Part shown: positions 4,043-40,079 of the stretch, piece after piece
Numbering within the stretch: position 1 is the first letter of the stretch
How the letters are laid out: each line of letters starts with the position of its first letter
Translations under genes and position numbers: made by a program
NCBI RefSeq assembly: GCF_022014595.1
Contig: NZ_CP091740.1
Span: 2,096,200 to 2,160,199 of the forward strand
Reading direction: 5' to 3'
Origin: Solitalea lacus
GTDB lineage: Bacteria > Bacteroidota > Bacteroidia > Sphingobacteriales > Sphingobacteriaceae
DNA length: 64,000 bases
Notes under the pieces: model-generated
What the model saw: the letters and a program-made list of their open reading frames with translations, nothing else
What the model was told of the DNA's origin: nothing
Databases searched by the model: none

Positions 4043-4045
4043 AAA

Positions 4046-6745: not shown

Positions 6746-6753
6746 GAAAACCA

Positions 6754-8181: not shown

Positions 8182-8220
8182 GTCTCGAACTAAAAATCAT
8201 TCAGATATATAAAAATAGCT

Positions 8221-16580: not shown

Positions 16581-17978
16581 ATGCTTAAATCAGGTATTAT
16601 GCAAGTTGTGAGAAAGAAAATATTAGTAATGGCAGGGTTATGTGTCCTATTTAGTACCGTAGCCTGTCAAAAATGGGTTGATGATGCTCCTCAACCTTTG
16701 CAAGTGGATGAATCAAAAGTTTTCTCTACTGAGCAGGGATTTCGTGATGCCTTAAACGGGGTTTATTTACAGTTGGGTTCATCTGCTCTTTACGGAAGAG
16801 AGTTAACCATGGGAGTACTGTCATTGGCTGGAAGAAACTACGATAGTGTAAGTGTTACTAAAGTGAGCAACTTATATTATAAAGCTGCTACATGTAACCT
16901 TGCTGATCCTTCGGTTAAAAGTTATTCTGCTGAGGTTTGGAACAAAATGTATCAATCCATTGCCAACCTGAATAATGTTTTAGCTAATGCAGAAACAAGA
17001 AAAGGCATATTTACGGGCGATAATTATAAAACCGTAAAAGGAGAGGCTCTAGCTCTTAGAGCGTATTTACACTTTGATTTGCTTCGTTTGTTTGCTCCAG
17101 CTCCTGTAACAGGTCAGTTGGCTAGTCCGGCTATTCCATATGTAACAGCGTTAAGTGCCAATGCTACTCCGGTAAGTTCTGTTGAGCAAGTACTACAAAA
17201 CTGTATTGCTGATTTAACTGCGGCAGATGAGTTGTTAAGTGCCGATGATTTAACAGCATCTCAATTTACAAAATGGGCGGTAAAAGGCTTATTAGCACGT
17301 GTGTACATGTATAAAGGAGATAATGCACAAGCCAAAGAAAATGCTTTAGCAGTTATCAACAGCAATAAGTTTTCATTGTCAACAAACAACAATGATTTAT
17401 TCTTTACAAAAGAAAGCTTGTTTAAACTTTATATATACAACAATAATTATTACGCATACTATAAATCAGTGTTTAGCTCCCCAGTCTTATTGGGCTTATC
17501 ATCTTCAGCTCAAACTGCAGTATATGTAACAGGCAATGGTGCTACCTCAGATTATCGGAAGAATTTTATTAACACACTAACCGGAAATGGAACAGGTGCA
17601 GCACTCATGCCCAAGAAATTCTATGCAACTGCTTCGAATATATTTCCAATGATACGTTTATCGGAGATGTATTACATAGCAGCTGAATGTGCTGCCGATG
17701 TACCAACAGGCTTATCGTATATCAATCAAGTTAGAACTGGCAGAGGGGTTCCGGCTTTAACCGCTGCAAACGTTCCGGATGCAGGAAGCCTTTCTAATGA
17801 AATTATGAAAGAATATCGAAAAGAATTTATCGGAGAAGGGCAAATGTTCTTCTATTATAAGCGGAAAAATACGCCATTTACAGCTTTGCCATTTTATCCG
17901 AAAGTGCCTGCCGTAGCTGGCGAAGCTTACGTTCCTGTGGCGGCCAATGCAAGTTATACATTCATTAAACCTGAATAA
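16581..17978 (+). CDS. SusD/RagB-like surface lipoprotein (first)
   Basis: A 465-residue partner of the preceding SusC. A lipoprotein signal has Cys in STVACQKW. SusD landmarks are VFSTEQGFRDALNGVY, WNKMYQSIANLNNVL, GEALALRAYLHFDLLRLF, AVKGLLARVYMYKGD, IRLSEMYYIAAE, and YRKEFIGEGQMFFYYKR near the C-terminus. SusD proteins lie on the cell surface, bind the glycan or peptide, and close the SusC barrel. The start abuts the SusC stop with no spacer; an internal ATG at 16599 is an alternative start that also keeps the signal. The relatively short length suggests a compact binding surface. Confidence 0.92.
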   Translation: MLKSGIMQVVRKKILVMAGLCVLFSTVACQKWVDDAPQPLQVDESKVFSTEQGFRDALNGVYLQLGSSALYGRELTMGVLSLAGRNYDSVSVTKVSNLYYKAATCNLADPSVKSYSAEVWNKMYQSIANLNNVLANAETRKGIFTGDNYKTVKGEALALRAYLHFDLLRLFAPAPVTGQLASPAIPYVTALSANATPVSSVEQVLQNCIADLTAADELLSADDLTASQFTKWAVKGLLARVYMYKGDNAQAKENALAVINSNKFSLSTNNNDLFFTKESLFKLYIYNNNYYAYYKSVFSSPVLLGLSSSAQTAVYVTGNGATSDYRKNFINTLTGNGTGAALMPKKFYATASNIFPMIRLSEMYYIAAECAADVPTGLSYINQVRTGRGVPALTAANVPDAGSLSNEIMKEYRKEFIGEGQMFFYYKRKNTPFTALPFYPKVPAVAGEAYVPVAANASYTFIKPE

Positions 17979-18015: not shown

Positions 18016-21000
18016 ATGATCATTATGGGTAGCAATAATAAAAAATTAAACGGGGGATGGAATAAGGGTGTTCTACTGTTTTTCCTTCTAAATCTTTTTA
18101 CCACAGTACTTTTTGCACAAAGCATAGTAGTAAAGGGTACTGTTAAAGATGAATCTGGAGAGGCTTTAGCTGGAGCCATTGTTCAACAAGTGGGCGTCAA
18201 AAATGCTACGTCAACAAATAAGGATGGTAAGTTCGAGCTAAAAAACGTTGCTCCGGATGCAATCTTGAGTGTTTCATATGTGGGTTATAAGACTGAAAAA
18301 CAGTCGATTAAGCCTGGTCAGACTAGTGTCATCTTTATATTAAAAAGTAACATTATCACACTAAAAGAAGTAACAGTAAATACAGGATTATACAAACGTC
18401 CTGTAGGTAATTTTACCGGTTCGGCGAAAACTTATTCCGGTGAAGAATTGAAAACTGTTAACCCTCGCAACGTGATACAGGCATTAGCGGCTATTGATCC
18501 AGCAGTAAGATTAGCTGAAAACAACCAGATGGGTAGCAATCCCAATCAATTACCTAACATTCAGATAAGGGGAGCTAATAACCTTCCATTGCAAGGTAAT
18601 ACTAATGCAGGTGCAAATCCGGTTTCAAATGGTGATATCATGGCGAGCTATTTGGCAAATCCAAATCAGCCATTAATTATTTTAGATGGTTTTGAAACCA
18701 CAATGCAGACCCTTTATGATTTGGATGTTAATTTAATTGCCAATATTACTGTTTTGAAAGATGCAGCTGCTACTGTTGCATATGGTTCAAAAGCAGCTAA
18801 CGGTGTAATTGTAGTTGAAACCAAGCAGCCTAGCTTTGGTAAGTTAAGAGTTACTTACTCGGTAAATGCAAGTGCTGAATTGCCTGATCTTTCATCTTAT
18901 CACTTAATGGATGCAGCGCAAGTTCTGGAGGCTCAACGCTTAACAGGTGTTTATAGCGATCCGAGTAACTACAATAAGGATCTTGCTAAGAAACAGTGGT
19001 ATGATTACCGCTTAGCTCAAGTTAAGAGTGGTGTAAACACCTATTGGCTTTCTCAGCCGTTGCAATTAGGTTATGGTTTAAGTCATAGCTTGTCATTGTC
19101 GGGAGGTAAAGGAGCATTACGCTATAGTTTTGGATTGAGTTATAACAATGCAGAAGGGGTAATGAAAGGTTCAGGTAGAGACCGCTATGGTATGAACTAT
19201 AATGTTTCATACACCGCAAAAAAGATAAAATTAAACAATACCATTTCTCTTGGTTATGCTAAGGGCAATAACACTCCGTGGGGTAGTTTTGATAGTTATG
19301 CTAAACAATTTCCATATTTTAAAAATAACGATGATGCGGGCAATCCAATTAAAGTTTTGGAACCTAATTCCTCAGATTTAGGGTTCAGTATTTCTGCTCC
19401 AGGTGGAACTTTTGCCAATCCAATGTATAACTCAACCTTAAACATAAAAGATTATACTACGACTTTAAGTTTAACCAACAATACAAGTGTTGATTGGTCT
19501 ATTACTAATGATTTTAAAATATCAGGTAGCTTGGGTTGGTCTGGAAATACACCTAATGCAGAGGCTTTCTTCCCTGCAGATCATACCATGTTCCTTGCAA
19601 ATTCCATGGCAACGTTTACTGATTTAGGGTCTTATCAACAAACTAAGGGTTCTAATAGTGCAATTAATGGCAGAGTGAGTGCAAGTTATAACCTAAATCT
19701 AGGCAGACATAATATTCTTGCCAATCTAGGTTCAACTTTTCAGAAAACTTCAAGCAATGGTACCACTGTTATTGTTAATGGAATTCCGAACGATTACTTA
19801 GGAGAAATGGGATTGGCTAATGGGTTTAATTATTTGAATACTAAGCCTAGAACCATCAATAACTTATCTAAAAACTTGTCTAGCTTCTTAAACTTGAGCT
19901 ACAATTTTGATAATCGTTATACTGTTGAAGCTACAGTTAACCAGAGTGGTTCATCTCAGTTTGGTTCTAACAGCCGATTTGCTCCTTTTTATGCGGGTGG
20001 GGTTGCCTGGAATATTACAAACGAAAAGTTTTTCAAACCAAACAACATTATTTCATCAGCTAAGCTAAGAGCTAGTATTGGTATCACTGGTAACCAAAAC
20101 TTCTCTTCAGATATGGCTCAGCAAATTTACAATTACAATTATTACAATAATTACCGGTTCATGGTGGGTACTGTTGTGGGTGGCTATGCTAATCCGGATT
20201 TACAATGGCAGCAAACCCTTAAAAACAATATCGGTTTAAATGTTGGATTATTTAAAGGTAGAGTTAATGCTTCCCTTGAATATTTCCGTGAAACAACTAA
20301 CAACTTGATTTTGCCATTGGATCTTGCGCCTTCTACAGGATTTACATCCTATCAAAATAACTTAGGTGCAACCAAAAATGAGGGTTATGAAATAACAATC
20401 TCCTCTCCAATTATAAAAGATGCAAAACGCAATATTTTTTGGACCCTTGGCTTCAGTACCGGTCATTATGAGAATGTTATAACTAAGTTGTCTCCTGCTA
20501 TTGATGCAATTAATAATCGTTTCAACAGTTCAACAGATCCGAACAATGCTAATAATTCAAAATACCAAACTTCACCACTTCCGCGCTTTGTTGTAGGTGA
20601 GTCAATGTCTAGAATTTGGGCAGTACCGTCATTAGGAATTGATCCTGCTACTGGTCAGGAAGTGTTTGTAAAACTGGATGGCAGTAAGACATTTATTTGG
20701 GATGCGAATGATAAGCGTCCGATTGCAGATGCAAATTCGAAATTCAAAGGTGGTTTGTCATCTAATTTCAATTATAAAAACTTCATTTTAAACTTTAATC
20801 TGACTTACCAGTATGGTGGTTATATGTACAATCAAACATTGGTAGATAAAGTAGAGAATGTGAATTTACTGCTGGGTAATGCCGACGAGCGGGTAATAAC
20901 TGAACGTTGGAAACAACCGGGTGATCATTCTTCATTTAAATCATTAATTGCCGACGGCAGTAAAGGTTTGCAGCAAACAAATGCAACCTCACGTTTTGTT

Positions 21001-21210
21001 CAAAAAAATGATTTCCTTGATCTGGCAAGTTTAACAGTAGGGTATAATATTCCTGCAAGCTTAAGGTGGGTTAAAGCAGCTCACTTATCTGCACCAAAAA
21101 TTATGGTTACACAAAACAACCTGATCCATTTAGGTACCATTAAAAACGAGAGAGGTACAAGTTATCCTTTTTCTAGAAGTTTAAGTTTTGGTTTATCAAC
21201 AAATTTCTAA
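18016..21210 (+). CDS. SusC/RagA-like TonB-dependent outer-membrane transporter (second)
   Basis: A 1064-residue paralogue of the SusC at 13449. The signal peptide ends TVLFAQ. A clear carboxypeptidase-regulatory-like domain follows (VKGTVKDESGEALAGAIV at about 40-57, FELKNVAPDAILSVSYVGY). The plug has LNPRNVIQALAAIDPAVR-like sequence, LDGFETT and ITVLKDAAATVAYGSKAANGVIVVET, then the barrel, ending FGLSTNF. The first codons give two in-frame ATGs (18016 and 18025). It follows the first SusD by 37 bases and is directly followed by its own SusD, so the operon encodes two complete import pairs. Shared barrel motifs with the first SusC, such as IWAVPSLGIDP, indicate duplication. Confidence 0.93.
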   Translation: MIIMGSNNKKLNGGWNKGVLLFFLLNLFTTVLFAQSIVVKGTVKDESGEALAGAIVQQVGVKNATSTNKDGKFELKNVAPDAILSVSYVGYKTEKQSIKPGQTSVIFILKSNIITLKEVTVNTGLYKRPVGNFTGSAKTYSGEELKTVNPRNVIQALAAIDPAVRLAENNQMGSNPNQLPNIQIRGANNLPLQGNTNAGANPVSNGDIMASYLANPNQPLIILDGFETTMQTLYDLDVNLIANITVLKDAAATVAYGSKAANGVIVVETKQPSFGKLRVTYSVNASAELPDLSSYHLMDAAQVLEAQRLTGVYSDPSNYNKDLAKKQWYDYRLAQVKSGVNTYWLSQPLQLGYGLSHSLSLSGGKGALRYSFGLSYNNAEGVMKGSGRDRYGMNYNVSYTAKKIKLNNTISLGYAKGNNTPWGSFDSYAKQFPYFKNNDDAGNPIKVLEPNSSDLGFSISAPGGTFANPMYNSTLNIKDYTTTLSLTNNTSVDWSITNDFKISGSLGWSGNTPNAEAFFPADHTMFLANSMATFTDLGSYQQTKGSNSAINGRVSASYNLNLGRHNILANLGSTFQKTSSNGTTVIVNGIPNDYLGEMGLANGFNYLNTKPRTINNLSKNLSSFLNLSYNFDNRYTVEATVNQSGSSQFGSNSRFAPFYAGGVAWNITNEKFFKPNNIISSAKLRASIGITGNQNFSSDMAQQIYNYNYYNNYRFMVGTVVGGYANPDLQWQQTLKNNIGLNVGLFKGRVNASLEYFRETTNNLILPLDLAPSTGFTSYQNNLGATKNEGYEITISSPIIKDAKRNIFWTLGFSTGHYENVITKLSPAIDAINNRFNSSTDPNNANNSKYQTSPLPRFVVGESMSRIWAVPSLGIDPATGQEVFVKLDGSKTFIWDANDKRPIADANSKFKGGLSSNFNYKNFILNFNLTYQYGGYMYNQTLVDKVENVNLLLGNADERVITERWKQPGDHSSFKSLIADGSKGLQQTNATSRFVQKNDFLDLASLTVGYNIPASLRWVKAAHLSAPKIMVTQNNLIHLGTIKNERGTSYPFSRSLSFGLSTNF

Positions 21211-21214
21211 GCGT

Positions 21215-22693
21215 ATGTTCAAAATGAATCAATTAACAAAGCAAATAAATAAAGTATCCACATTGGTTACTTCTGGCTGCTTCATGTTCGGTGCCATTAC
21301 GCTAACTACCCTTAGTGGATGTGAGAAATTTTTGGAAATGCCATTAAAGGATAAGGTGCCGCAAGAATCGGTATTTAGTGATGAGCAAGGATTTATGGAT
21401 GCACTAACTGGAGTGTATTTAGGCATGGATAAGCCTCAAAATGGACCAACTAAGGGTTTATATACTAACGATTTGTCAGTTGGGGCGCTATCAGTGATGA
21501 GTAATAATTACTCAAATGCATCCTCTTCGGCAATCAGTGATGGTATGTATGCCAACTTTGCAAAATATGATTATAACCAGGCAGGGGTAAAGCAGGAAAT
21601 TGCCTATATATGGAGTGGTATGTATAATAATGTTGCCAATTTGAATAACCTGCTTGAACATATTGATGCTAAGGAGAGTGTTTTTACACGTGATCATTAT
21701 GCAAGGGTTAAAGGTGAAGCGTTAGCATTACGTGCTTTCTTTCACTTTGATCTGGCTCGATTGTATGGAAAGTCTCCTGTTACAGGAATGAATGAAAAAG
21801 CTATTCCGTATGTTACCAAATTTGGCTCGTCCTCAGTTCCATTTGTAACACTTAATACAGCTCTTGAGTCTTGTATTTCAGATTTAAATGAAGCTAAAAG
21901 TTTATTGGCCAAGGCCGATACTGCATCGCTGCAAGAAGGTTCACTTAACCTATTTGCAGGCTACACACAAAACCATATGAATTATTGGGCAACCAAGGCT
22001 TTATTGGCACGTGCGTACATGTATAAAGGTGATTACGCTAATGCATGGAAAAATGCTGCTGAAGTTATCGGAAGTAATAAGTTTCCTTTGTCAACCAGCA
22101 ATGTTGCTGTTTCGACTAATACTACCAGGGATCGTTTGTTTTCGAAAGAATTAGTATTTGCAGTATACAGCGCAAACGTAGGTAGCATTAATGATGGTAT
22201 GTTTAATTTAAGTACTGGAACTTCTCTTCAGTTTACCAATAAGACTACACTTTATAGTACAGGTGATTGGAGACTGTCATGGTTTGATAAGAACAATGTT
22301 AATACGGAAGTACCTTCTAAATACTTTCAAAACGCTGGCTTGCCATACATTATGCAAAATATAGTACCGCTTATCAGGATTTCAGAAATGTACTATATCG
22401 CCGCAGAATGTGCAAATAACAATGGTGATTTAGCCCAGGCATTGGTGTACTTAAACAAAGTAAGAAATGCTCGTGGATTAAGTTCTTTAACTAGTACTGA
22501 CGCTTCGAGTTCGGCGGCTCTCTCACTTGAAATTACCAAAGAGTATAAGAAAGAATTTTTTCAGGAAGGTCAGACATTCTTTTATTATAAAAGACTTAAT
22601 AAGGATTTGAAGGCAGAAACCGGTACTACCGTAAATGTTCCTGCTGATGCATATGTTTTCCCAATTCCTGATAAAGAAGTTGAATATAATTAA
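21215..22693 (+). CDS. SusD/RagB-like surface lipoprotein (second)
   Basis: About 492 residues. The open frame begins with a TTG at 21188 inside the SusC gene, but ATG at 21215 (or 21224) gives a proper lipoprotein signal with Cys in LSGCEKFLEM, so I start there, 4 bases after the SusC stop. SusD landmarks: VFSDEQGFMDALTGVY, WSGMYNNVANLNNLL, GEALALRAFFHFDLARLYG, ATKALLARAYMYKGD, IRISEMYYIAAE and YKKEFFQEGQTFFYYKR. It resembles the first SusD along its length and presumably pairs with the second SusC. Confidence 0.92.
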   Translation: MFKMNQLTKQINKVSTLVTSGCFMFGAITLTTLSGCEKFLEMPLKDKVPQESVFSDEQGFMDALTGVYLGMDKPQNGPTKGLYTNDLSVGALSVMSNNYSNASSSAISDGMYANFAKYDYNQAGVKQEIAYIWSGMYNNVANLNNLLEHIDAKESVFTRDHYARVKGEALALRAFFHFDLARLYGKSPVTGMNEKAIPYVTKFGSSSVPFVTLNTALESCISDLNEAKSLLAKADTASLQEGSLNLFAGYTQNHMNYWATKALLARAYMYKGDYANAWKNAAEVIGSNKFPLSTSNVAVSTNTTRDRLFSKELVFAVYSANVGSINDGMFNLSTGTSLQFTNKTTLYSTGDWRLSWFDKNNVNTEVPSKYFQNAGLPYIMQNIVPLIRISEMYYIAAECANNNGDLAQALVYLNKVRNARGLSSLTSTDASSSAALSLEITKEYKKEFFQEGQTFFYYKRLNKDLKAETGTTVNVPADAYVFPIPDKEVEYN

Positions 22694-22725: not shown

Positions 22726-23514
22726 ATGAAGTTTAGATTTCAATATATACTCGCTTTTTTCAGCATGTTGTCAATTACAGCATGCGAAGAGAAACCTGCG
22801 TTATTTACGGATACTGATGGTCTTTATTTTGGAACAGCAGATACAGCCATTTCGTATTCATTTGCGAAGTACCCAAAAAAAATTGCTGATACTCTTCAAA
22901 TACCGGTAAATGTTTTAGGGAATTCTGCTGCCTCAGACAGACCAATTGGTGTTGAAGTGGTGGCAATGAGTGAGTTGGGTACTGCTATTGAAGGGACTCA
23001 TTTTAAGATTCTTTCTAATCCGGTTATTCCAGCCAACGCGCATAAGTCCACAATTCAGGTTGCTGTTTATCGTACCCCTGATTTAGAGTCAGGTGGTGTG
23101 AAGAAGTTCGCAATCAGATTAAGGAAAGATGAAAATTTCCCATCGGAGGGTATCAGCTTAAAACAGAAACTGACGGTTAATTTGGCTTATATCCAAAAAC
23201 CGGCTTCCTGGGGCGAATATACAGGAACTGTTACAGGTTATTGGGCTGGCTTTAGTGCCAATTTTGGAACCTGGACTCCGACGAAATACAAATTGATTTT
23301 AGAGGCCTTGTATGATCCTCAAACGGGCACAACTGTTACGGAATTTCCTGGAAACAGATTTGGACCACCAGTTATCTATAGTCAGTATCTGGCAACGGTA
23401 AGAAATTACATTAAAACGAAGTATCCAGGCAATTACGGGGTAGCTGGAGGTGCAACCTTGACAGATCCGGACAATAGTAACCTTCCAGTTCAGGTAGGTC
23501 CTGCAAATTATTAA
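22726..23514 (+). CDS. DUF4843-type surface lipoprotein
   Basis: A 262-residue lipoprotein with Cys in LSITACEEK. The mature start LFTDTDGLYFG followed by an Ig-like beta segment (DTLQIPVNVLGNS, RPIGVEV, GTHFKIL) matches DUF4843 proteins, which are found after SusD genes in Bacteroidota and are thought to be accessory surface binders. It lies 33 bases after SusD and 29 before the PKD-like gene, inside the same operon. No catalytic motif is visible. Confidence 0.8.
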   Translation: MKFRFQYILAFFSMLSITACEEKPALFTDTDGLYFGTADTAISYSFAKYPKKIADTLQIPVNVLGNSAASDRPIGVEVVAMSELGTAIEGTHFKILSNPVIPANAHKSTIQVAVYRTPDLESGGVKKFAIRLRKDENFPSEGISLKQKLTVNLAYIQKPASWGEYTGTVTGYWAGFSANFGTWTPTKYKLILEALYDPQTGTTVTEFPGNRFGPPVIYSQYLATVRNYIKTKYPGNYGVAGGATLTDPDNSNLPVQVGPANY

Positions 23515-23542: not shown

Positions 23543-25210
23543 ATGAAACAGATGAAAAAAGTATTAGGTGTTTTCTTGACTGCAATTGTTGCATCACTTG
23601 GCTTTACAAGTTGCTATAAAGATATTGGAGGATACGATTATAACGAGATAAACTCACTGAAGATTTCTACGGATATGACTGGTGCTGATCCGAATATTTT
23701 CATTACTGCAGATTCAATTGACTTGCATCAAAATGATAGCCTGAAAGTAAAGCTTAAAATTGAACAATCATCGGGCGCAGCAGAAAATTTCTCGTATCAA
23801 TGGTTACTTACACAGTATGACCAATCTTCTGGTAATCCTTCAAAAAACTTACTGGACTCTTCAGCAACGTTGAAAACTAAAATTACGTTGGCCCCTAATT
23901 TATACAAGTTGGTTGCCAAGGTTACTGATAAAAGCACAGGTGTTTCTTACTATAAACACTTTGCCTTAAACGTGTCTACGGCTGATTGGGGCGGTGAAGG
24001 TTGGGTTGTGTTACAAAGCGAGCCTGACGGATCAGACATCTCAGTAATCACTACCAGAGACGGATCTGTCAAAGGGAAAGTTTATCACGATATTTATTCG
24101 ATCGTAAACGGTCATAAGTTGCCTGTAGGTACCTATAAGGCAAATGTGATCAATTATGGAACTACCCTGCGTGCACAAAAAATATCGTTTTTCTATCCCA
24201 ATGGAGCTTTGCAAGTTAGAAACACCGACTTTGCTGATTCCACTAAAGGTGAGTATTGGTTTGCCGTAAATCCGGGAGCTGCTAACTTTCAAGTGAATGG
24301 TTCTGCTGGGGGATCTTCTGCAGGATGGGAATATACCATTGTTAACGATCAAATTGCTTATCGTCAATTTGCAAGTGCTGCTCATTTAATAAATGCGCCA
24401 TTGTTCTTTCCTCCTTATGCAGGCCTTTCAGTAAGTCCTTATGTTATTAATGCAGCTGCAAGCGATCAGTATTATACACTTTATGATAAGGCAAACAGAG
24501 GCTTTGTGATATTCAATGCATCAACTTCATCATTTGTAAATATACCTGCATACGCAGCTGCTGCCACAAATTTGAATCCTACAACAGGTCAGGGATTTGA
24601 TATGAAAAACATGGCAGATAATATGATCTATGCTGAAAATGCGCAGCCATTAACTACTGCAGGTACTAACTGGAATTGCTTTTTTAGAAATGATGCCGGT
24701 ACTAAAACTTATTTAGTTCAATTCCCGCGTGGAATTTCATATGCAAATAATTTTACAACCGGTCGTTTCCAATTAACTGAGGCAAATTGTCCGGGTATTA
24801 ACACGGCTACCCAATTTGCTTGTCCAACTTACCTGACAATGCCTAAGGGTGTGTTTTATTATGTAAACGGCAACAAAGTTTACACCTGTAAAGTAAATAC
24901 AGTTGCAACTTCAACGGCAAGAGCAGATGTTGGCGGACTTATATTCCCAACTGGTACTGTAATAAAGGCAATGAAAATATTTAACTCAGGTTATACTGCT
25001 GCCAACATTACAGCTTTAAACGTACCTGAAGGTAAGGTTCTTGTAGTTGCTACGGACGAAACAGCAAGTGGGGGAGGAAACAATGTGTATTTCTTTAATC
25101 TGAATCCTACTACGGGAGACATTTTAGGATCACCAACAAGCCCTGCTGATGTTTACCGTGGCTTTAACACAATTAAAGATATAGTATTTAAAAAAGGATT
25201 AGGTCGATAA
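23543..25210 (+). CDS. PKD-like family surface lipoprotein
   Basis: A 555-residue lipoprotein with Cys in GFTSCYKDIGGYDYNEIN. An Ig/PKD-like module at about 35-150 (SYQWLLTQYD, KTKITLAPNLYKLVAKVTDKSTG) is followed by a larger region with repeated Y-x-LYDK and FVIFN-like strands, probably a beta-propeller or beta-sandwich. Proteins of this layout accompany SusC-SusD-DUF4843 sets and are believed to bind substrate at the cell surface. The next gene begins after a 128-base gap that contains two CTAATGTCAA repeats (25220 and 25286), so a secondary promoter is possible there. Confidence 0.75.
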   Translation: MKQMKKVLGVFLTAIVASLGFTSCYKDIGGYDYNEINSLKISTDMTGADPNIFITADSIDLHQNDSLKVKLKIEQSSGAAENFSYQWLLTQYDQSSGNPSKNLLDSSATLKTKITLAPNLYKLVAKVTDKSTGVSYYKHFALNVSTADWGGEGWVVLQSEPDGSDISVITTRDGSVKGKVYHDIYSIVNGHKLPVGTYKANVINYGTTLRAQKISFFYPNGALQVRNTDFADSTKGEYWFAVNPGAANFQVNGSAGGSSAGWEYTIVNDQIAYRQFASAAHLINAPLFFPPYAGLSVSPYVINAAASDQYYTLYDKANRGFVIFNASTSSFVNIPAYAAAATNLNPTTGQGFDMKNMADNMIYAENAQPLTTAGTNWNCFFRNDAGTKTYLVQFPRGISYANNFTTGRFQLTEANCPGINTATQFACPTYLTMPKGVFYYVNGNKVYTCKVNTVATSTARADVGGLIFPTGTVIKAMKIFNSGYTAANITALNVPEGKVLVVATDETASGGGNNVYFFNLNPTTGDILGSPTSPADVYRGFNTIKDIVFKKGLGR

Positions 25211-25338
25211 TCGGTCAGCCTAATGTCAAAATAGTGTCAATTCGTAACATATTGATTTTAAGGAAGTAATAGAGATATAGCTGATCTAATGTCAAGAGAG
25301 AGAAAGAAACAAAAGAGAAATCCATTTATTATTTGATC

Positions 25339-27837
25339 ATGAAATTAAAATTTATCCCAGTTTTTGTGTTTGCCTTGTTTGCTTTTAAAGCAGGCTTTGC
25401 GGAAGATTCTACAGCAGTGAAGAAACCTGTTGCTCTTCCTGTTTTGGCAGGTAAGCTGAAAGCTTACAAAGAGGTTATTCCTGCCAAAGCACTTACACAA
25501 ACAGGTTTATTTAAGGTGCATCAGGTAGATGACAAGTATTTTTTTGAAATTCCTGATGAATTATTATCCAGAGAATTTCTTTTTACTACACGTTTGTCAA
25601 AGGTGCCAACCGGTAGCCCTCGTTTCGGAGGAGATTTAATGAATGGAATGATAGTTTCTTTTGAGAAGGCTCCTGGTGACAAATTATATGTACGTGCAGT
25701 TACAAGTGTTGCACAAAGTGATCCCTCGAATGCTATTGCACGCGCTGTAAAAAATGCGACGATCGACCCAATTATTATGGTGCTTGATCTTAAAGCTCGT
25801 GGCGCAGATAATAAGTCATCAGTAATTGATATTACCGACTTTTTCCTGAAAGATAATTTGATTTCGGGTTTCCATCCTGCTGCTAAAAAGCAAATGGGTA
25901 CAGGATCTCCTGCTGCTGACAGATCACAGATTTTGTCAATGAATGCGTTTCCAAATAACATTGAGATTAAATCAATGAAGACGTATTCAATGGGTGGAGG
26001 TGCCAAGCCGGAAGGTGGTGAGGGGGCTTCAGTTTCTCCTAGTGCGGGTGTAACATTTGAAATAAGCAATGCTGTTACGGTATTGCCTGAAACACCTATG
26101 CAATTACAGGCATATGATCCTCGTGTTGGTTATAAGTTTGAAAGCTATAATGTGTTTTCTGACTCACAACAAAAGGTGGAGGAACAACGCTATATCATTC
26201 GTAATAGACTTGAAGTTAAGCCAGGTGATATGAAGCGTTATAAAGCTGGTGAATTAGTGGAACCGAAAGAACCATTAGTTTATTACATTGACCCTGCAAC
26301 TCCAAAAAAATATCGTCAGTACATTATTGCTGGTATTAACGATTGGAATGAAGCATTCAAAGCTGCTGGTTTTAAAAATGCTATTATTGGTAAAGAATGG
26401 CCAGAAAATGATAAATCAGTTGATATTGATGATGCTCGTTTCAGAGTAATTCGTTATATGCCTTCTACAAATCCATTTGTTGATAATAATCAGGTAACGG
26501 ATCCTCGTACTGGTGAAATTCTTCAAACGTATATTGGTTGGTCGCACAGTCAGGTGAAAACGCTTCACGACTTGTATATGGTACAAGCTGGAGCAGTTGA
26601 TCCTGGAGCTCGCAGCATGCAATTCAGTGATGAATTAATGGGAGCTTTAATTCGTTCAGAAATTAACAAAACTGTAGGTTTAACGCTTGGTCTGCGTGAA
26701 AACTTGTTAAGTAGCAGCAGTATTCCTTTTGAAAAATTGAGAGACAAAGTTTGGTTGGAATCTCATCCATACAATAACTCAATTATGGATTACAACCATT
26801 ATAATTATGTAGCACAGCCTACTGACGGCGTTTCTCGTAAAGGTTTGATTCCTCAAATTGGCGACTACGATAAATGGGCGATTAAATGGGGATATGCTTA
26901 TACAGGAGCAAATGATTTTGAAGCTGATAAAAAAATCCGCTTAAAATGGATTGCAGAGAATGTAAAAGCTGGATCTAAATTGGCATTTGCTGGTGCTACT
27001 CCTGGAGTAAAAGGTGATGACATTACAAACCCTGCAGCACAATGGGAAGATTTGAGTAATAATCCTGTTAAAGCAGCTGAGTATGGTATTAAGAACTTAA
27101 AAGTTGTGATGTCTAATTTGGTTAAATGGACTACAGAAGGTGATAATACCTATTTTAATACGTCTGATGTTTATTATACGTTACTTACTCAGTATGGGTT
27201 CTTCATACGTCATGGATTTACTCAAGTAGGAGGTATCAATGAAAATATTAAGAGCGTAGAGCAAGCAGGTGATGTTTTCAGCCCAGTGTCTAAGGAAACT
27301 CAAAAAGCTGCTATTGCCTTTTTGAACAAAGAAGTATTTAACACTCCAAATTGGCTTTTAGATCCAAACGTGTTAAATAAGTTCAGAAAGCCGGCAAAGA
27401 AAGAGGAAGTACTGAAATTCCAGGAGGATGCTCTTTTTAATCTTCTTGAGTCTTCTCGTCTTTACCGTATGAATGCTACCACTCTGCGTTTTGGTAAAGA
27501 GAAAACTTATACGGTTGATGAAATGCTTACCGACTTAAATAAAGGTTTGTTTGCAGAGTTGTCGACTCGTCAACCGATTAATTCGAACAAACGTTATCTG
27601 CAAAAATCCCTGGTAACCAATTTGCTTAAAACCTTATTAGATGGAGAGCAGCAAGCTGGCGACCCAACTAAGGAAGGTATTGGAGGAACTGATGTTGCTG
27701 TAGTTTTGCGTTCGCAATTGAAAAGCATAATGGTACAATGTAAAGCAGCAGCTGCCGGATACTCTGATCCTATAATGGTTGCTCACCTTAGATACATTTC
27801 GGATAAAATTGATAATGCTTTAAATCCGAAAAACTAA
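25339..27837 (+). CDS. Zinc-metalloprotease-family protein with destroyed active site
   Basis: An 832-residue exported protein starting at ATG 25339 (an in-frame TTG two codons earlier is less likely). It has a signal peptide ending AGFAED and DUF5118/DUF5117-like domains as in its neighbour. Where the neighbour has HEVGHTLGLRH, this protein has KTVGLTLGLRE (444-454). All three zinc ligands and the catalytic Glu are replaced, while flanking MG-LIR and EKLRDK-W and the Met-turn-like NSIMDY are kept. The reading frame is intact over its full length, so it is not simple decay. It is probably a non-catalytic paralogue acting in binding, regulation or complex formation with the active copy 36 bases downstream; that role is inference. 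Confidence 0.88.
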   Translation: MKLKFIPVFVFALFAFKAGFAEDSTAVKKPVALPVLAGKLKAYKEVIPAKALTQTGLFKVHQVDDKYFFEIPDELLSREFLFTTRLSKVPTGSPRFGGDLMNGMIVSFEKAPGDKLYVRAVTSVAQSDPSNAIARAVKNATIDPIIMVLDLKARGADNKSSVIDITDFFLKDNLISGFHPAAKKQMGTGSPAADRSQILSMNAFPNNIEIKSMKTYSMGGGAKPEGGEGASVSPSAGVTFEISNAVTVLPETPMQLQAYDPRVGYKFESYNVFSDSQQKVEEQRYIIRNRLEVKPGDMKRYKAGELVEPKEPLVYYIDPATPKKYRQYIIAGINDWNEAFKAAGFKNAIIGKEWPENDKSVDIDDARFRVIRYMPSTNPFVDNNQVTDPRTGEILQTYIGWSHSQVKTLHDLYMVQAGAVDPGARSMQFSDELMGALIRSEINKTVGLTLGLRENLLSSSSIPFEKLRDKVWLESHPYNNSIMDYNHYNYVAQPTDGVSRKGLIPQIGDYDKWAIKWGYAYTGANDFEADKKIRLKWIAENVKAGSKLAFAGATPGVKGDDITNPAAQWEDLSNNPVKAAEYGIKNLKVVMSNLVKWTTEGDNTYFNTSDVYYTLLTQYGFFIRHGFTQVGGINENIKSVEQAGDVFSPVSKETQKAAIAFLNKEVFNTPNWLLDPNVLNKFRKPAKKEEVLKFQEDALFNLLESSRLYRMNATTLRFGKEKTYTVDEMLTDLNKGLFAELSTRQPINSNKRYLQKSLVTNLLKTLLDGEQQAGDPTKEGIGGTDVAVVLRSQLKSIMVQCKAAAAGYSDPIMVAHLRYISDKIDNALNPKN

Positions 27838-27872
27838 TAAACAGACTGTATAGTAAGATAATTAGCAGGTAA

Positions 27873-30395
27873 ATGAAACTTAAAATATTATTTATAGTGT
27901 TGTTGGGGGTGTGCTGCAATCAGGTGATGGCTCAGCGCAAAAAGGATAAACAACCTATAGCAAAGGTCGATTCTGTAAAAAAAGATCCGTTAAGTACGAT
28001 CATCACTAAAAATACAGAAACTAAAAAGGGATTGTTTAATATTTATCGTACTGGTGATAAGTATTATTTTGAAATTCCTGATTCTATTTTAAAAAGAGAA
28101 TTATTATTAACCACTTTCTTAGTAAAGACTCCAGGTGGTAGTCCGAAGTTTGGTGGCGAGCAGATGAATGAAAAGGTCATGTCTTTTGATAAAGGCTTAG
28201 GTAACAAGATCAACTTACGTATCATTACCTTAATGACTAAATCTGATTCAAGCAATGCCATTGCCAAAGCCGTTGCCAACTCAAATATAGATCCTATTGC
28301 CATTGTGTTTGATATTAAGGCTAAGGGTAATGGAGGTAAAAGTTCAATCATCGACGTAACGGATTTTCTTCAAAAAGAAAACTCTTTTACAATGCTAAGC
28401 CCAGAAGTTGCTAAGAGATTGAACTTAGGAGCTATGGCTTCAGACAGAAGTTATGTAAAGAGTTTTGCATCATATCCGGTTAATGTTGAAATTAAGATGG
28501 TGCGTACTTATGCGGCCACTGCTCCAGCAAAAGTTGATCGTTATACTGTTGCACTTGAAGCAGCAAAAGTAGGTGGAGCTGCAACAATGGAAATTTCAAC
28601 TTCAATTTTATTGATGCCTGAAAAACCAATGGTGGGTCGCCAATTTGATTTGCGCGTAGGTTATTTTGCGGATAATAGTGGTTACATTCCTCTTTCAGAT
28701 GATCAGCAAAACATTAAGGACAAAACCTTCATTGTTCGCTACCGCTTAGAGCCCAAGGCTGAGGATATGGAGCGCTATAAGAGAGGTGAATTGGTTGAGC
28801 CTAAGCAACAAATTGTTTATTATATCGATCCGGCTACTCCAAAGCAATGGCGTAAGTACCTGATCGCCGGTATCAATGACTGGAATGTAGCATTTGAAGC
28901 GGCAGGTTTCAAAAACGCAATTATCGGTAAAGAATGGCCAGAGAATGATACAACAATGAGTTTGGAAGATGCTCGTTATAAGGTATTACGTTATTTACCT
29001 TCAGATACACCTAACGCTTATGGGCCTAATATTCACGACCCTCGAAGCGGTGAGATCTTACAGGGCTATATTGGTTGGTATCACAACGTTATGACCTTGG
29101 TTCACGATTGGTACATGATTCAGGCAGGTCCGAACGATCCTAGAGCTCGTAGCATGAAGTTTGACGAAGAACTAATGGGTGAATTGATCCGATTCGTTTC
29201 TTCACACGAGGTAGGTCACACATTGGGTTTACGTCATAACATGGGTAGCAGTAGTTTAACTCCGGTTGAAAAATTAAGAGATAAAGAATGGGTTGAAAAA
29301 CATGGTCACTGTAATTCGATTATGGACTATGCACGTTTCAACTACGTAGCTCAACCTGAAGATAACATTGGCCCTAAAGGAATTTATGCACGTATCGGTG
29401 ATTACGATAAATGGGCTATTAAATGGGGCTATACCTATACCGGTGCTAAGGACGATGATGAAGATAAAAAAATCGTTTCTCAATGGATTGTTGACAGCTT
29501 AAAAGCTAACCCAGGATTATGGTTCGGTGGTGAAGGTCGTAATCACGATGCTCGTTGCCAGACAGAAGACTTGGGCGACAACAGCATGAAAGCCAATGAG
29601 TATGGTATTAAAAACTTGAAACACGTAGTGGCTCACTTGCCTGAGTGGACTAAAGAAGAAGGTGATTTATATAAAAACCTTGCTCAAATGTATATTCAGG
29701 TGGTAACACAGTTTAACCGATATGCTACTCATGTTTCCAGTAACGTAGCCAGCGTTTATGAAACATTTAAATATCCTGGTGATGCGGGTGAAGTTTATGC
29801 ATCTGCTCCTGTGGAGAAGCAAAAAGAAGCTGTGGCATGGTTAAATAAATATGTTTTTGAAACTCCAACTTGGTTATTAGATCAGAACATTCTTAATAAA
29901 ATTGGTGCTCCAATTCATTTAAGCAGTGTTAGAAACATTCAAGAACGCCAAATGGCTGTTTTATTAAGTGATCGTGTTTTTAATACAATGAATTTAATGC
30001 AACAGCGGTTTGGAGAAGCAAATACCTATTCAATGAATGAGTATTTATCAGATTTGAAACAAGGTGTTTTTAGTGAGTTGAAAACTAATAAGCCGATTGA
30101 TCAATTCCGCCGAGATGTTCAAAAATCCTATGTTACTGGAATCATTCGTGCGATGAAAGAAGGCGAAATAGGAAATAATGCTATTGGTTTATTGTTTTCT
30201 CCTGGTGCAGCGGAAGAAACGCCATTAACGACTAATACAGATATTTCAGCCCTATTAGCTGTACATTTAGAGAATTTGCGCAAAGACATCTTGGCTGCCA
30301 TTCCGGCAACTACGGATAAAGATTCAAAAGAGCACCTTCAATATGTTGCTGATAACATTAAAAGGGCCTTAAACAAGCGATTCGACACTAAATAA
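27873..30395 (+). CDS. Zinc-dependent metalloprotease (DUF5117/DUF5118 type), active-site intact
   Basis: An 840-residue exported metzincin-like protease. The signal peptide ends QVMAQ. The extended zinc motif HEVGHTLGLRH lies at residues 445-455 (ligands His445, His449, His455; catalytic Glu446), followed by NSIMDY as the probable Met-turn near 480. Conserved segments shared with the preceding gene include VEPKQQIVYYIDPATPKQWRKYLIAGINDWN. Predicted location is periplasm or cell surface. It sits in the SusC/SusD operon after the inactive paralogue, so it probably trims proteins or peptides captured at the surface. An intrinsic terminator with a GCAA loop lies just after the stop. Confidence 0.9.
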   Translation: MKLKILFIVLLGVCCNQVMAQRKKDKQPIAKVDSVKKDPLSTIITKNTETKKGLFNIYRTGDKYYFEIPDSILKRELLLTTFLVKTPGGSPKFGGEQMNEKVMSFDKGLGNKINLRIITLMTKSDSSNAIAKAVANSNIDPIAIVFDIKAKGNGGKSSIIDVTDFLQKENSFTMLSPEVAKRLNLGAMASDRSYVKSFASYPVNVEIKMVRTYAATAPAKVDRYTVALEAAKVGGAATMEISTSILLMPEKPMVGRQFDLRVGYFADNSGYIPLSDDQQNIKDKTFIVRYRLEPKAEDMERYKRGELVEPKQQIVYYIDPATPKQWRKYLIAGINDWNVAFEAAGFKNAIIGKEWPENDTTMSLEDARYKVLRYLPSDTPNAYGPNIHDPRSGEILQGYIGWYHNVMTLVHDWYMIQAGPNDPRARSMKFDEELMGELIRFVSSHEVGHTLGLRHNMGSSSLTPVEKLRDKEWVEKHGHCNSIMDYARFNYVAQPEDNIGPKGIYARIGDYDKWAIKWGYTYTGAKDDDEDKKIVSQWIVDSLKANPGLWFGGEGRNHDARCQTEDLGDNSMKANEYGIKNLKHVVAHLPEWTKEEGDLYKNLAQMYIQVVTQFNRYATHVSSNVASVYETFKYPGDAGEVYASAPVEKQKEAVAWLNKYVFETPTWLLDQNILNKIGAPIHLSSVRNIQERQMAVLLSDRVFNTMNLMQQRFGEANTYSMNEYLSDLKQGVFSELKTNKPIDQFRRDVQKSYVTGIIRAMKEGEIGNNAIGLLFSPGAAEETPLTTNTDISALLAVHLENLRKDILAAIPATTDKDSKEHLQYVADNIKRALNKRFDTK

Positions 30396-30402
30396 TTAAA
30401 GT

Positions 30403-30431
30403 ACATGCTCGAGCAATCGGGCATGTTTTTC
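30403..30431 (+). terminator. Intrinsic terminator with GCAA tetraloop after the metalloproteases
   Basis: A 10-bp stem (ACATGCTCGA/TCGGGCATGT, one G-T pair), a GCAA loop of the stable GNRA class and a TTTTT tail begin 7 bases after the stop. It probably ends or weakens the SusC operon transcript before the TlpA genes. Confidence 0.75.
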
Positions 30432-30454: not shown

Positions 30455-31849
30455 ATGAAGAAGTTATTATCGGTTTTATTTTTGTTCAATTTATGCATTT
30501 TTAGTGCTTATGCAGGCGCTACAAATGCAGTTATTAATTGTACAATTCATGGAAATAGCACGAGTGGTTTATTTCTATACCAATTACAGGATGGGGATGC
30601 TGTAAGCTTAGGCTTTAAGCGCCCTGATGCGAATGGAAACTGCTCTTTTAACTTGGATGTTAAAGAGGGTGTTTTCTTTTTCAAAAAGGCAGGAGGTAAA
30701 GGACATGAGTTTAAAACCCTTATTTACCTTAAAGCCGGTGAGCAAAAACAAGTAGATTTTTATATAGGCAAGGAATCTATTGATTATGATAGTTGTGCCA
30801 TTACAAAGCCAAACGCCGAAACGAAAAGTTTCCAGTCTTGGTTAAATGCCATGAATGAATACGCTCATGCTGTGAAAACTAAACCAAGTGTGGGTCGCAG
30901 CAAATATGCTCAATTCGAAAAGTTTGCAGCTTCGTTTTTAAAGACGAACAAAACCGTTAATCCTTACTTTAATACTTGGCTTAATGATAAAGTTGCCATC
31001 GATCTTAAATACTTAAGAGCTGGTAATTATTTTGGTTTAGGCAGATTAAATGCCGCTTGTGACAGTTCGATAAGTGCTCCGGAATTTTATAAACCTTTAC
31101 TTGATAAGAATATTGTCAATGATGTTCGCATACTTCGATCGGAGCATGGAATGGAACTGCTTGATTATGTTTTTGGATATTGGAAATTCAATGAAGTAAA
31201 AAACCAACAAAAGGTAGTCGATAACTTTTTTTCTCCAGAAAATGCTGCAAAAATTACTAATGATGCAGTTAAGGTTGCATTTTTAATGCATAAAATGCCT
31301 GGAATTAAAGAATATGAAAACTTTGTGAAATACGTTGAACCATATAAAAATGTATTTGTTACCCCCAAGCAGAAAGAAGCTTATAATAAATTATATAATG
31401 ATTTAGGGCCATTCGCTAAAGGCAAACCGGGATATAACTTTGAGCTAAAGGATGTTAATGACAAAACCTATACATTGGCCGGATTTAAGGGTAAAGTAGT
31501 GGTAATTGACGTTTGGGCTATGTGGTGTGCTCCTTGTTTGCAAGAAAAACCGATCATGGAAAAAATTGCTGAAGGTTATCATGACAGAAACGATATTGTC
31601 TTTATTGGAATGTCAGTAGATGGTCATGCAAAAAAGGATGCTTGGAAGAGCTTTGTGAAAAAAAATCACTTTACAAGCATTGAACTATTATCACAATTCG
31701 ATGAATCACTATTTAAATACTATAAAATATCAGGTATTCCTCGTTTTCTAATTTTTGATCGGGAGGGTAAAATTATAACGGTAGATGCACCAAAGCCATC
31801 AAATCCAGGCTTTAAAAAGCTCCTTGATGCCACATTGAATGCGAATTAA
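30455..31849 (+). CDS. TlpA-like thiol-disulfide oxidoreductase with DUF4369-like N-terminus (first)
   Basis: A 464-residue exported redox protein. Signal peptide ends SAYAG. The N-terminal about 110 residues form a small beta domain like DUF4369, then a helical middle part, then a thioredoxin fold at about 325-464 with WCAPC (Cys358, Cys361) and the cis-Pro segment ISGIPRFLIFDREGK. Such proteins reduce or shuffle disulfides outside the cytoplasm. It lies 60 bases after the metalloprotease and a terminator. Cargo is unknown; the protease, SusD or imported peptide substrates are all possible. Confidence 0.87.
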   Translation: MKKLLSVLFLFNLCIFSAYAGATNAVINCTIHGNSTSGLFLYQLQDGDAVSLGFKRPDANGNCSFNLDVKEGVFFFKKAGGKGHEFKTLIYLKAGEQKQVDFYIGKESIDYDSCAITKPNAETKSFQSWLNAMNEYAHAVKTKPSVGRSKYAQFEKFAASFLKTNKTVNPYFNTWLNDKVAIDLKYLRAGNYFGLGRLNAACDSSISAPEFYKPLLDKNIVNDVRILRSEHGMELLDYVFGYWKFNEVKNQQKVVDNFFSPENAAKITNDAVKVAFLMHKMPGIKEYENFVKYVEPYKNVFVTPKQKEAYNKLYNDLGPFAKGKPGYNFELKDVNDKTYTLAGFKGKVVVIDVWAMWCAPCLQEKPIMEKIAEGYHDRNDIVFIGMSVDGHAKKDAWKSFVKKNHFTSIELLSQFDESLFKYYKISGIPRFLIFDREGKIITVDAPKPSNPGFKKLLDATLNAN

Positions 31850-31914
31850 TTCAAGACTTTTAATGGGCAGTTTTTAACAATTAAGATTAACTTTAATCAT
31901 AAAAGATATTGGAA

Positions 31915-33672
31915 ATGAAAAATTTCATTAAAAGTTTAGTGCTTGTCTTTTTTTGCTTAGCCGCCGTGGTAAATGCATCAGCACAATCACGGCTGGTAAC
32001 AATCACCGGTTCATTTACCCAGAAAAAGAATTATGAGATCACGATTGCTGGCAAGTCGGGTGATAAATCTTTCAGAGTAGTTCAACACAATAATGATCCC
32101 AGCAATCCTAATTTTTCATTTGTTTTTCCTGCAATTGCAGATGCAAACTATCAACTGAAGGTAAAGGTAATGAAAATGGGTAATCGCAGGTTGGAAGTTG
32201 AAACCGAGGTTGATTATCCTTTGAACCTGACCGGAAAAAATAGTTTAAACTTAACTATCGACCCTGCTTTGTTTGATCAAAAGTCAGGTTTTAAAATTGA
32301 AAAACTGCCGGCTAAACTCTCAACGGCATCAATTTCGGGTTCGTTTAACAATGCCAAATATGGGGTAGACCTTACCTTCGAAAAGGTGGTTGAAGGTCGG
32401 TTGGCGCCGGTTCAAATCATTTTTGGTAAAGCAGGAGATTCAGTTTTCAACTTTTTGGTACCTGTTGAAAAGGAAGGATTCTATTACCTGACCACCATGG
32501 GTTGGAAAAAGCAGGTTTACCTAAAGCCTAATGACCAGTTACAATTGGTGTTAGATAACAGATCTGGAATACAAATCAGTACCACTAAATCTACTGAAGA
32601 GAATAATGCGCTTCAAAAATGGGAAGAATTGATTTATCCTTTGAAGGCTATCGTTAAAACGCCAAAGCCGGATCGTGAAGCGTTTATGTCTATGCATCAG
32701 TCATTGCAGCCAAAAATTAAAACATTTGTTCAGCAGGTTAAAACTCAGAATGTGAAATTTAATGCACTTTTTAAAACTGCTGCACAGCTTGATAACAATA
32801 TGGCCGTCTTGAACCTGCTGTTAAAAACAAATAGTGTAAACAGAGGGTCGTTTTCGTCCTCTTATAAAGAATTTGTAAACGTTCCGGATTATTACAAACA
32901 GACATTAAAAACTAATGCCATTAACTCTGCTGATTTGTTGAAATTAGCAGATGGTTATGATTATATTAATCTGAATGCAAAATTAAGCTTGGACGATACC
33001 AAGGCGAAAGGAATTACAGATGCTGAAAAGGTGAAGGTTTTGATGAATTCAACGCCAAATGATACATTAAAAGCTTATTTGTTAAAATCTCAATTGAATG
33101 AACTGGAGCTCAACGTAAGTAACTATACGGAGTTTCGTGATGTTTTCCTGCCGTACAAAAAATATGCAAAAGTGCCTTCAGTTAAAGCCAAGTACGATGG
33201 TGTTAGCGGCATGTATGCTGCCGACACAGCATTTTTAGGCAAATCAGCTTACGACTTTACTTTGCCAGATGTAAACGGCAAAATGGTGTCGATGAAGGAT
33301 TTTAAAGGCAAAGTTGTTTTGGTTGATGTTTGGGCTACTTGGTGCGGGCCTTGCAAAGCGCAAATGCCTTTCCTGAAAGAAGTAGAAGAACTTTATAAAG
33401 GAAATGACAGTATTGTTTTTGTAGGCATTTCTTTGGATGCCGCAAAAGACAAGCAAAAGTGGCTGAACATGATTCATGAAAAGCAGCTTGAAGGTGTACA
33501 GCTTTTGGATGATTTCGGCAGAACATTTGGCCGTAAATACAAAATGGTTGCGATTCCTCGCTTTTTATTAATTGATAAAAACGGTAATTGGGCCGAAGTA
33601 CGTTGTCCGCTTCCTGAAAATAAGGAAAAGCTTAAGAAATACATTGATAGGGAATTACAAAGAAATATTTAA
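31915..33672 (+). CDS. TlpA-like thiol-disulfide oxidoreductase, large form (second)
   Basis: About 585 residues from ATG 31915 (an in-frame TTG at 31909 is less likely). Signal peptide ends NASAQ. A long N-terminal region (about 25-430) of beta and helical segments precedes a C-terminal thioredoxin domain with WCGPC (Cys477, Cys480) and MVAIPRFLLIDKNGNW. The thioredoxin half resembles the preceding gene, so the two are paralogues with different N-terminal parts. It is the last gene of this locus; a terminator follows. Confidence 0.87.
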   Translation: MKNFIKSLVLVFFCLAAVVNASAQSRLVTITGSFTQKKNYEITIAGKSGDKSFRVVQHNNDPSNPNFSFVFPAIADANYQLKVKVMKMGNRRLEVETEVDYPLNLTGKNSLNLTIDPALFDQKSGFKIEKLPAKLSTASISGSFNNAKYGVDLTFEKVVEGRLAPVQIIFGKAGDSVFNFLVPVEKEGFYYLTTMGWKKQVYLKPNDQLQLVLDNRSGIQISTTKSTEENNALQKWEELIYPLKAIVKTPKPDREAFMSMHQSLQPKIKTFVQQVKTQNVKFNALFKTAAQLDNNMAVLNLLLKTNSVNRGSFSSSYKEFVNVPDYYKQTLKTNAINSADLLKLADGYDYINLNAKLSLDDTKAKGITDAEKVKVLMNSTPNDTLKAYLLKSQLNELELNVSNYTEFRDVFLPYKKYAKVPSVKAKYDGVSGMYAADTAFLGKSAYDFTLPDVNGKMVSMKDFKGKVVLVDVWATWCGPCKAQMPFLKEVEELYKGNDSIVFVGISLDAAKDKQKWLNMIHEKQLEGVQLLDDFGRTFGRKYKMVAIPRFLLIDKNGNWAEVRCPLPENKEKLKKYIDRELQRNI

Positions 33673-39730: not shown

Positions 39731-40079
39731 TTTCGGTATCATTGTTAATCATGCTAAAAGATTAACAATAGATTTAACAAATATAGGTGCTGATCTAAAT
39801 TTTGCAACTACTGTCAATTCCCGATTAGATTAAATGTCTTGTAGTACCATAAAGGGCTTGAGGTGTTATTTATACTCATTGTAATGTTCAAAATCCAGCT
39901 GCATTAGTGGAAGTTTGCAGATAATTGTAAAATTCATTACTGTTTTCATTAAAGTTTTGCATATAAAGCATAAGAATTTACCAAAATAATGTAGGTTTTG
40001 AGCTATCTAAATCCGCATTTTTAAAGACCAATCGATTATTGTAATTGATAGGACGAAATGCAGGTTTAATAAATTGATA

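Follow-up and report, generated by a model that had tools for sequence, protein, structure and literature searches.

A pseudoprotease conserved beside its motif-intact sister in a doubled SusC/SusD cassette

Why would a bacterial genome keep, just upstream of a gene for a metalloprotease with an intact zinc site, a full-length paralogue from which this site is gone? The question is raised by two adjacent genes, here called U (upstream) and D (downstream), in a 64,000-nucleotide stretch of Solitalea lacus DNA (contig NZ_CP091740.1, positions 2,096,200 to 2,160,199 of the forward strand), referred to below as the window. Comparison with related genomes indicates that U is almost certainly a conserved pseudoprotease. 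The more specific interpretation, that it is an ancient, selected pseudoprotease acting as a non-catalytic partner of D, is held with moderate confidence.

A metzincin pair with one altered zinc site

The U gene (25339..27837, + strand) encodes 832 amino acids from an ATG at 25339, the listed open reading frame (ORF) beginning at an in-frame TTG at 25333; the D gene (27873..30395, + strand) encodes 840 amino acids. The products are 45% identical over nearly their full length (384 of 847 alignment columns) and contain the DUF5118, DUF5117 and DUF4953 (Met-zincin) domains in the same order, all far above the Pfam curated cut-offs. DUF4953 scores 302 bits in U and 386 bits in D, with a cut-off of 24.2. 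Membership in the M16 or TldD families was not found, these three being the only Pfam domains detected in either protein at E ≤ 0.001.

The zinc-binding motif of D, HEVGHTLGLRH (H445 to H455; 29205..29237, + strand), corresponds to KTVGLTLGLRE in U (K444 to E454; 26668..26700, + strand). U thus has K444, T445, L448 and E454 where D has the zinc ligands H445, H449 and H455 and the catalytic Glu. Both proteins contain SIMD, the Met-turn segment. The genome contains four DUF4953 genes, and U is the sole one that lacks HExxHxxGxxH. The coordinates, lengths, both motifs and the paralogy of the pair had been given correctly in an earlier reading of the window from its letters alone (below, the sequence-only reading), as judged by an ORF check, the alignment and Pfam. 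That reading had also described a selective loss of the three ligands and the catalytic Glu. The replacement of all four holds for the window's U, but the loss is not limited to them, as 15 columns that are nearly invariant in active members differ in each of the 13 U proteins compared.

Judged by eye, both proteins have a signal-peptide-like N-terminus, which makes export to the periplasm probable. The N-terminal stretch of the window's D contains two cysteines and, again by eye, no clear lipobox.

Conservation and history of the inactive copy

A sample of 399 genomes of the bacterial family, spread evenly over a larger group, was searched for U. Matches at 63–100% identity were found in 13 of them, including the window's genome; the next matches drop to 47% and are D genes. 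When one genus was searched more fully (145 genomes), a further U came to light in genome G794; a second genus (93 genomes) contained no carriers beyond its three. Three of the four genomes of the window's genus carry U. The total is 14 U orthologues in three genera, and the named carriers include Pedobacter borealis, Pedobacter insulae and Solitalea agri. No further U stood out in 395 phylum-wide genomes, where the best score below the window's U and D was 926 bits, compared with 1605 bits for U itself.

The zinc site is degenerate in all 14 U proteins and intact in the D protein that directly follows each of them, so an intact HExxH in both copies at the same locus was not observed. The first zinc ligand is replaced by Arg or Lys and the third by Glu or Asp in every U. 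The catalytic Glu is changed to Thr, Asn or Ala, and the second His to Leu, Phe or Ser, in 12 of the 14; both are retained in G004 and G029, genus mates of the window's genome, with the motif REIGHSLGLRD. The U frame is open over 818–841 codons in 13 of 13 loci. A sequencing error is ruled out by the same loss in 13 orthologues besides the window's U.

The motif HExxHxxGxxH is kept in 190 of 190 other DUF4953 members, comprising 12 full-length D proteins, 119 further members of the alignment and 59 regions from other genomes, and thus in 178 of 178 members outside U and D; independent motif loss elsewhere in the family was found in none of the 190. These sequences are all distinct at 99.5% identity and form 188 groups at 97%, with two pairs more than 97% alike. 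Because the sequences were picked for their similarity to U and not randomly, distant branches are under-sampled. Stretches of less than 700 amino acids were excluded from the 119, and two of those excluded (L025 and L091) contain an internal stop yet keep the motif; region G632, a placeholder without a gene, was dropped before the 59 were counted. Calling every DUF4953 gene a metalloprotease is wrong for the U clade.

The test for purifying selection on U that the sequence-only reading had called for gave a positive result. The ratio of nonsynonymous to synonymous substitution rates (dN/dS, method YN00) could be obtained for four pairs in each set, out of 78 for U and 66 for D; in the others, the synonymous sites are presumably saturated. 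For U it is 0.077 (G004–G029), 0.062 (G280–G361), 0.064 (G208–G361) and 0.039 (G208–G280), and values near 1 were not found; for D the same pairs give the similar values of 0.097, 0.066, 0.059 and 0.043, respectively. Identity between orthologues is 62–74% for U and 67–74% for D, among the highest in the gene cassette described below. U is kept about as well as D and SusC2, and in most comparisons better than SusC1, SusD1 and the DUF4843 and TlpA-like genes. Recent pseudogene formation is ruled out by the dN/dS values together with this conservation.

The changes in U are concentrated around the former active site. Among 131 active members, 134 columns are conserved at 97% or more; U retains 85 of these columns fully, whereas 15 differ in all 13 U proteins. 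Nine of the 37 columns at D 435–495 are among those lost, against six of the 97 in the rest of the protein (Fisher p 0.005). The range D 370–570 holds 13 of the 15 (p 0.011), all between D residues 381 and 561. The near-site residues H479, R488 and R561 (D numbering) are lost in 13 of 13 U proteins. By contrast, the edge-strand motif DPR-GEI (D389, P390, R391, G393, E394 and I395) is fully retained, as is the SIMD segment (S482, I483, M484 and D485 of D). Between orthologues, the active-site segment is more variable in U than in D (entropy 0.65 vs 0.23 bits, p 2e-6), and the N-terminal/DUF5118 part is less variable (0.54 vs 0.80, p 0.026; mean pairwise identity 0.75 vs 0.63). Within U, the mean pairwise identity is 72% in the active-site segment and 53% in the C-terminal part. 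The constraint on U seems to have shifted away from the catalytic centre.

In both phylogenetic trees, U forms one clade and D another, and the split between the pair and the 14 other representatives has 100% support; such sister clades are what a single tandem duplication would give. The branching order is the same in U and D: (G004,G029) first, then (G149,(G208,(G280,G361))), then G000 with the rest, with G217 absent from the D tree set. The stem of U is longer than that of D (0.68 vs 0.29 in one tree, 0.51 vs 0.27 in the other), as expected after a loss of catalysis. The zinc-site loss in U predates the spread of the present group. The motif REIGHSLGLRD may represent an intermediate stage of this loss, and the position of G004 and G029, which branch off first among the U proteins, suggests that the outer ligands were lost first.

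With the U of G343, from another genus, the window's U shares 74% identity, and with the U proteins of G004 and G029, from its own genus, 62%. Another DUF4953 gene, used as a control, is 79–82% identical within the window's genus. The closer similarity of U to another genus, taken with the high within-genus identity of the control gene, points to horizontal transfer of the cassette, although the control covers the comparison within the genus only. The way in which the cassette is distributed over genera suggests movement as one block.

The doubled cassette

The 13 family genomes and G794 all share the gene order SusC1-SusD1-SusC2-SusD2-DUF4843-PKD_2-U-D, followed by TlpA-like genes; of the stretches compared, those of G376, G149 and G004 start within SusC1, and most end before the last gene is complete. 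The dual SusC/SusD operon context noted in the sequence-only reading is thus real and conserved. The gap between U and D is 18–35 bases in all 13 loci measured.

SusC1 (13449..16580, + strand), a SusC/RagA-type outer-membrane transporter, matches the NCBIfam SusC model TIGR04056 with 335.6 bits, below the cut-off of 368.25, and has no Pfam match at E ≤ 0.001; it is 49–61% identical to its counterpart in 12 other cassettes. SusC2 (18016..21210, + strand), a SusC/RagA TonB-linked transporter, scores 550.9 bits, above the cut-off, and is better conserved (67–73%). When the two best candidates per genome were scored, the 13 genomes with U were the only ones of the 399 to yield SusC2 orthologues at this level, the next matches reaching at most 42%. 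The SusD-like lipoproteins SusD1 (16581..17978, + strand; Pfam SusD-like_3 and SusD_RagB) and SusD2 (21188..22693, + strand; assigned by Pfam), the DUF4843 protein (22726..23514, + strand; PF16132) and the PKD_2 protein (23543..25210, + strand; PF16407) are each present in 13 of 13 cassettes, the latter two having lipoprotein-like N-termini by eye.

Downstream of D are two genes for thioredoxin-like proteins. TlpA1 (30455..31849, + strand; Pfam Redoxin/Thioredoxin_8) contains WAMWCAPC, and WCxxC is found in 13 of 13 counterparts. TlpA2 (31909..33672, + strand; Pfam Redoxin/AhpC-TSA) contains WATWCGPC; here WCxxC is present in five of 13 rows, two of which (G004 and G029) are probably extra TlpA1-like genes, and the other eight stretches end before the gene. 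The Solitalea agri cassette (G029, L077 15100–21000) has four TlpA-like genes instead of two, the fourth being of the TlpA2 type; the G004 stretch ends before any TlpA2-type gene could appear. A terminator-like hairpin just after D (30403..30426, + strand; ten pairs followed by a T-rich tract) was identified by pattern match only, and may separate the expression of the TlpA genes. As a class, terminator-like sites in the window are not significant (nine vs 12.3 expected in shuffles), and the promoter and terminator scans of the window both gave results near the shuffle level.

Among 100 loci scanned with cassette profiles, some contain a simpler SusC-SusD-protease-TlpA arrangement with one protease (L181–L189, L192 and L193; also L075, L114, which equals L186, and L125). 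Most of the remaining loci have a protease without other cassette genes at that profile sensitivity. A simpler unit of this kind may have given rise to the doubled cassette.

The U and D genes of the 13449–33672 block are closer to those of other genera than to the copies of its genus mates. By eye, the genes around the cassette include several for sugar use: upstream (3290–11541) are those for a GntR-like regulator, a major facilitator superfamily sugar transporter and an alpha-mannosidase-like protein, and downstream (40074–42734) is one for a glycoside-hydrolase-family-3-like protein.

Possible roles of U and comparison with known systems

AlphaFold2 models were obtained for U (70 aligned sequences; mean predicted local distance difference test 90.2, predicted template modelling score 0.88) and D (66 aligned sequences; 88.3 and 0.86). 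The models have largely the same order of elements, with the active-site helix at U 431–449 and D 432–450 and the preceding strand at U 393–402 and D 394–403. In a fold comparison with VIA, U residues 263–523 matched karilysin (8b2q_A) with Z 8.5, a root-mean-square deviation (rmsd) of 3.4 and 148 aligned residues, and the four best rows are karilysin. The D core matched karilysin 2xs4_A (Z 9.0, rmsd 3.2, 147 aligned), its top row being 4l6t_A (Z 9.4, rmsd 3.6, 189 aligned). The first nine D rows (Z 9.4 to 8.1) are all metzincins, and the first unrelated row has Z 7.8. When solved structures were searched by sequence, U had no match at E ≤ 10 and D had eight weak ones (best E 0.48), seven of them metzincins by name or family membership.

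In the mechanism that we propose, U and D would reach the periplasm by export and function jointly there as a peptidase of two subunits. Cutting would be done by D, and U, with its fold, edge strand DPR-GEI and N-terminal domains kept, would hold or present the peptide, or cap and position D. The substrate would be a peptide or polypeptide imported by the doubled SusC/SusD system, its disulfides being opened by the TlpA-like thioredoxins before cutting. More speculatively, an ion pair between Arg/Lys and Glu/Asp could hold the former zinc site together. The pseudoprotease with a function of its own that the sequence-only reading had put forward is supported by the conserved loss, the low dN/dS and the conserved cassette. 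The chances that U physically partners D are about even. The doubled SusC/SusD-protease-thioredoxin cassette may import peptides, a tentative assignment in which the peptide nature of the substrate comes solely from the protease. Doubtful as a whole is the fullest version of the model: a heteromeric importer-peptidase with its main roles doubled (SusC1D1/SusC2D2, U/D and TlpA1/TlpA2), in which U would be an obligate zinc-free subunit resembling matrix metalloproteinases (MMPs) with an Arg/Lys–Glu/Asp ion pair, and U/D a further independent live/dead zinc-peptidase pair beside M16 and TldD/E.

The main rival explanation makes U a regulator of D, that is, a trans-acting inhibitor or folding chaperone working through its N-terminal domains, for example by blocking the cleft of D. 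The stronger constraint on the N-terminal/DUF5118 segment in U than in D and the position of U just upstream of D fit this possibility. The pseudo-cleft of U is nevertheless still fairly conserved, as seen in the active-site segment relative to the C-terminal part, which would be needless for a regulator using its N-terminal domains only, and we consider this role rather unlikely. Alternatively, U could be an independent periplasmic peptide receptor or carrier that takes substrate from one SusC/SusD pair and makes no contact with D. Four kinds of genes are doubled in the cassette (SusC, SusD, protease and TlpA-like), so that each of the two paralogues could work with an importer of its own, and the edge strand is kept in U; however, U is never found without D (14 of 14 loci), and a contact-free receptor appears distinctly improbable. 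That U is still an enzyme, with another metal site or chemistry, seems very unlikely: the G004/G029 type (two of 14) keeps the Glu and the second His, and in the available part of PMC5810440 a neighbouring Glu is described as replacing a mutated His as metal ligand in TldD, but the other 12 U proteins are without the first His, the Glu and the second His, and H479, R488 and R561 are missing from 13 of 13. Decay of U as a pseudogene, or an artefact of sequencing, has negligible probability. All zinc-site residues are replaced in the window's U, as decay would allow, but this explanation is contradicted by the uninterrupted frames, dN/dS of 0.04–0.08, identity like that of D and the same loss in three genera.

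Several points weigh against the proposed mechanism. The cassette is inherited as a block, so that the matching U and D trees are no proof of contact. In G217, a single-contig genome, the reading frame of D is broken beyond the motif (L036, about 16290–16346) while U is intact, which is hard to square with an obligate partner unless it is a sequencing error. The retained Glu and second His make metal binding possible in the U proteins of G004 and G029, and the export of both proteins was judged by eye. Column p values assume independent columns, with no correction for relatedness; the DUF5118 core alone gives p 0.057, and DUF5117 does not differ between U and D (p 0.5). The first unrelated row for U in VIA has Z 8.1, barely under the 8.5 of karilysin, and Foldseek against the Protein Data Bank returned nothing for U at E ≤ 0.001, its top rows being designs, repeats and unrelated proteins, a result that excludes no family. 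Because the U values are near the background and Foldseek gave no match, the MMP-like fold is a supported lead, not proof.

A description of this cassette was not found in open-licence PubMed Central papers, judged mainly by titles and abstract openings. Full texts in the same collection contain no mention of DUF5117 or DUF5118, and the titles retrieved there for DUF4953, DUF4843 and Met-zincin include none on this cassette; in two of these papers the terms are used in other contexts. The available part of an iron-stimulon paper (PMC10434189) mentions many SusD genes and no link to this cassette. By title, the literature on pseudoproteases and metzincins deals mostly with metalloproteases of animals, ADAM17 among them. 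In the passages available, a 2024 review of inactive metallopeptidases covers ADAM, M14, M16B and other families (PMC11266112).

U and D have the three domains of the DUF5118-DUF5117-DUF4953 proteins of Bacteroidota, and the HExxHxxGxxH of the 190 other members is absent from U. The karilysin and MMP-like domains are 13–18% identical to U and D, which have large additional N- and C-terminal parts. TldD/TldE is not known from a SusC/SusD setting. According to the available part of PMC5810440, none of the metal-binding residues of TldD are conserved in TldE, with which it forms a heterodimer; this is likewise a live/dead metalloprotease pair, but it has an HExxxH motif and is not a metzincin. 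Mitochondrial processing peptidase (MPP) and the bacterial M16B pairs consist of one zinc-binding subunit and a homologous subunit without the zinc motif, encoded in bacteria by a two-gene operon, and the dead subunit of MPP helps to form the active centre and binds substrate (PMC11266112, passages available). They resemble U/D in the adjacent live and dead paralogues and differ in belonging to an unrelated family and in having a proven complex, which for U and D is a prediction. The pseudo-metzincins of the ADAM family (such as ADAM11, 22, 23 and sperm ADAMs) have also lost catalysis, some acting by protein contacts (PMC11266112), but they are animal transmembrane proteins with disintegrin domains and do not share an operon with an active sister. 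On the import side, RagAB has been implicated in protein uptake (PMC11817032, in part) and utilisomes have a SusC2D2 core (PMC7618045, in part). Both share with the cassette SusC/SusD pairs and accessory proteins; the cassette differs in its two distinct pairs, its live/dead protease pair and its thioredoxin-like proteins.

U is a clean natural example of a bacterial protein of metzincin type that was retained after losing its catalytic centre, paired with a motif-intact sister, in three genera. With two adjacent genes in one cassette and named relatives, the function of a pseudoprotease becomes directly testable. Live/dead zinc-peptidase pairs are already known; what sets U/D apart from them is its different family and genomic setting and the unusual way in which the metal centre has been replaced.

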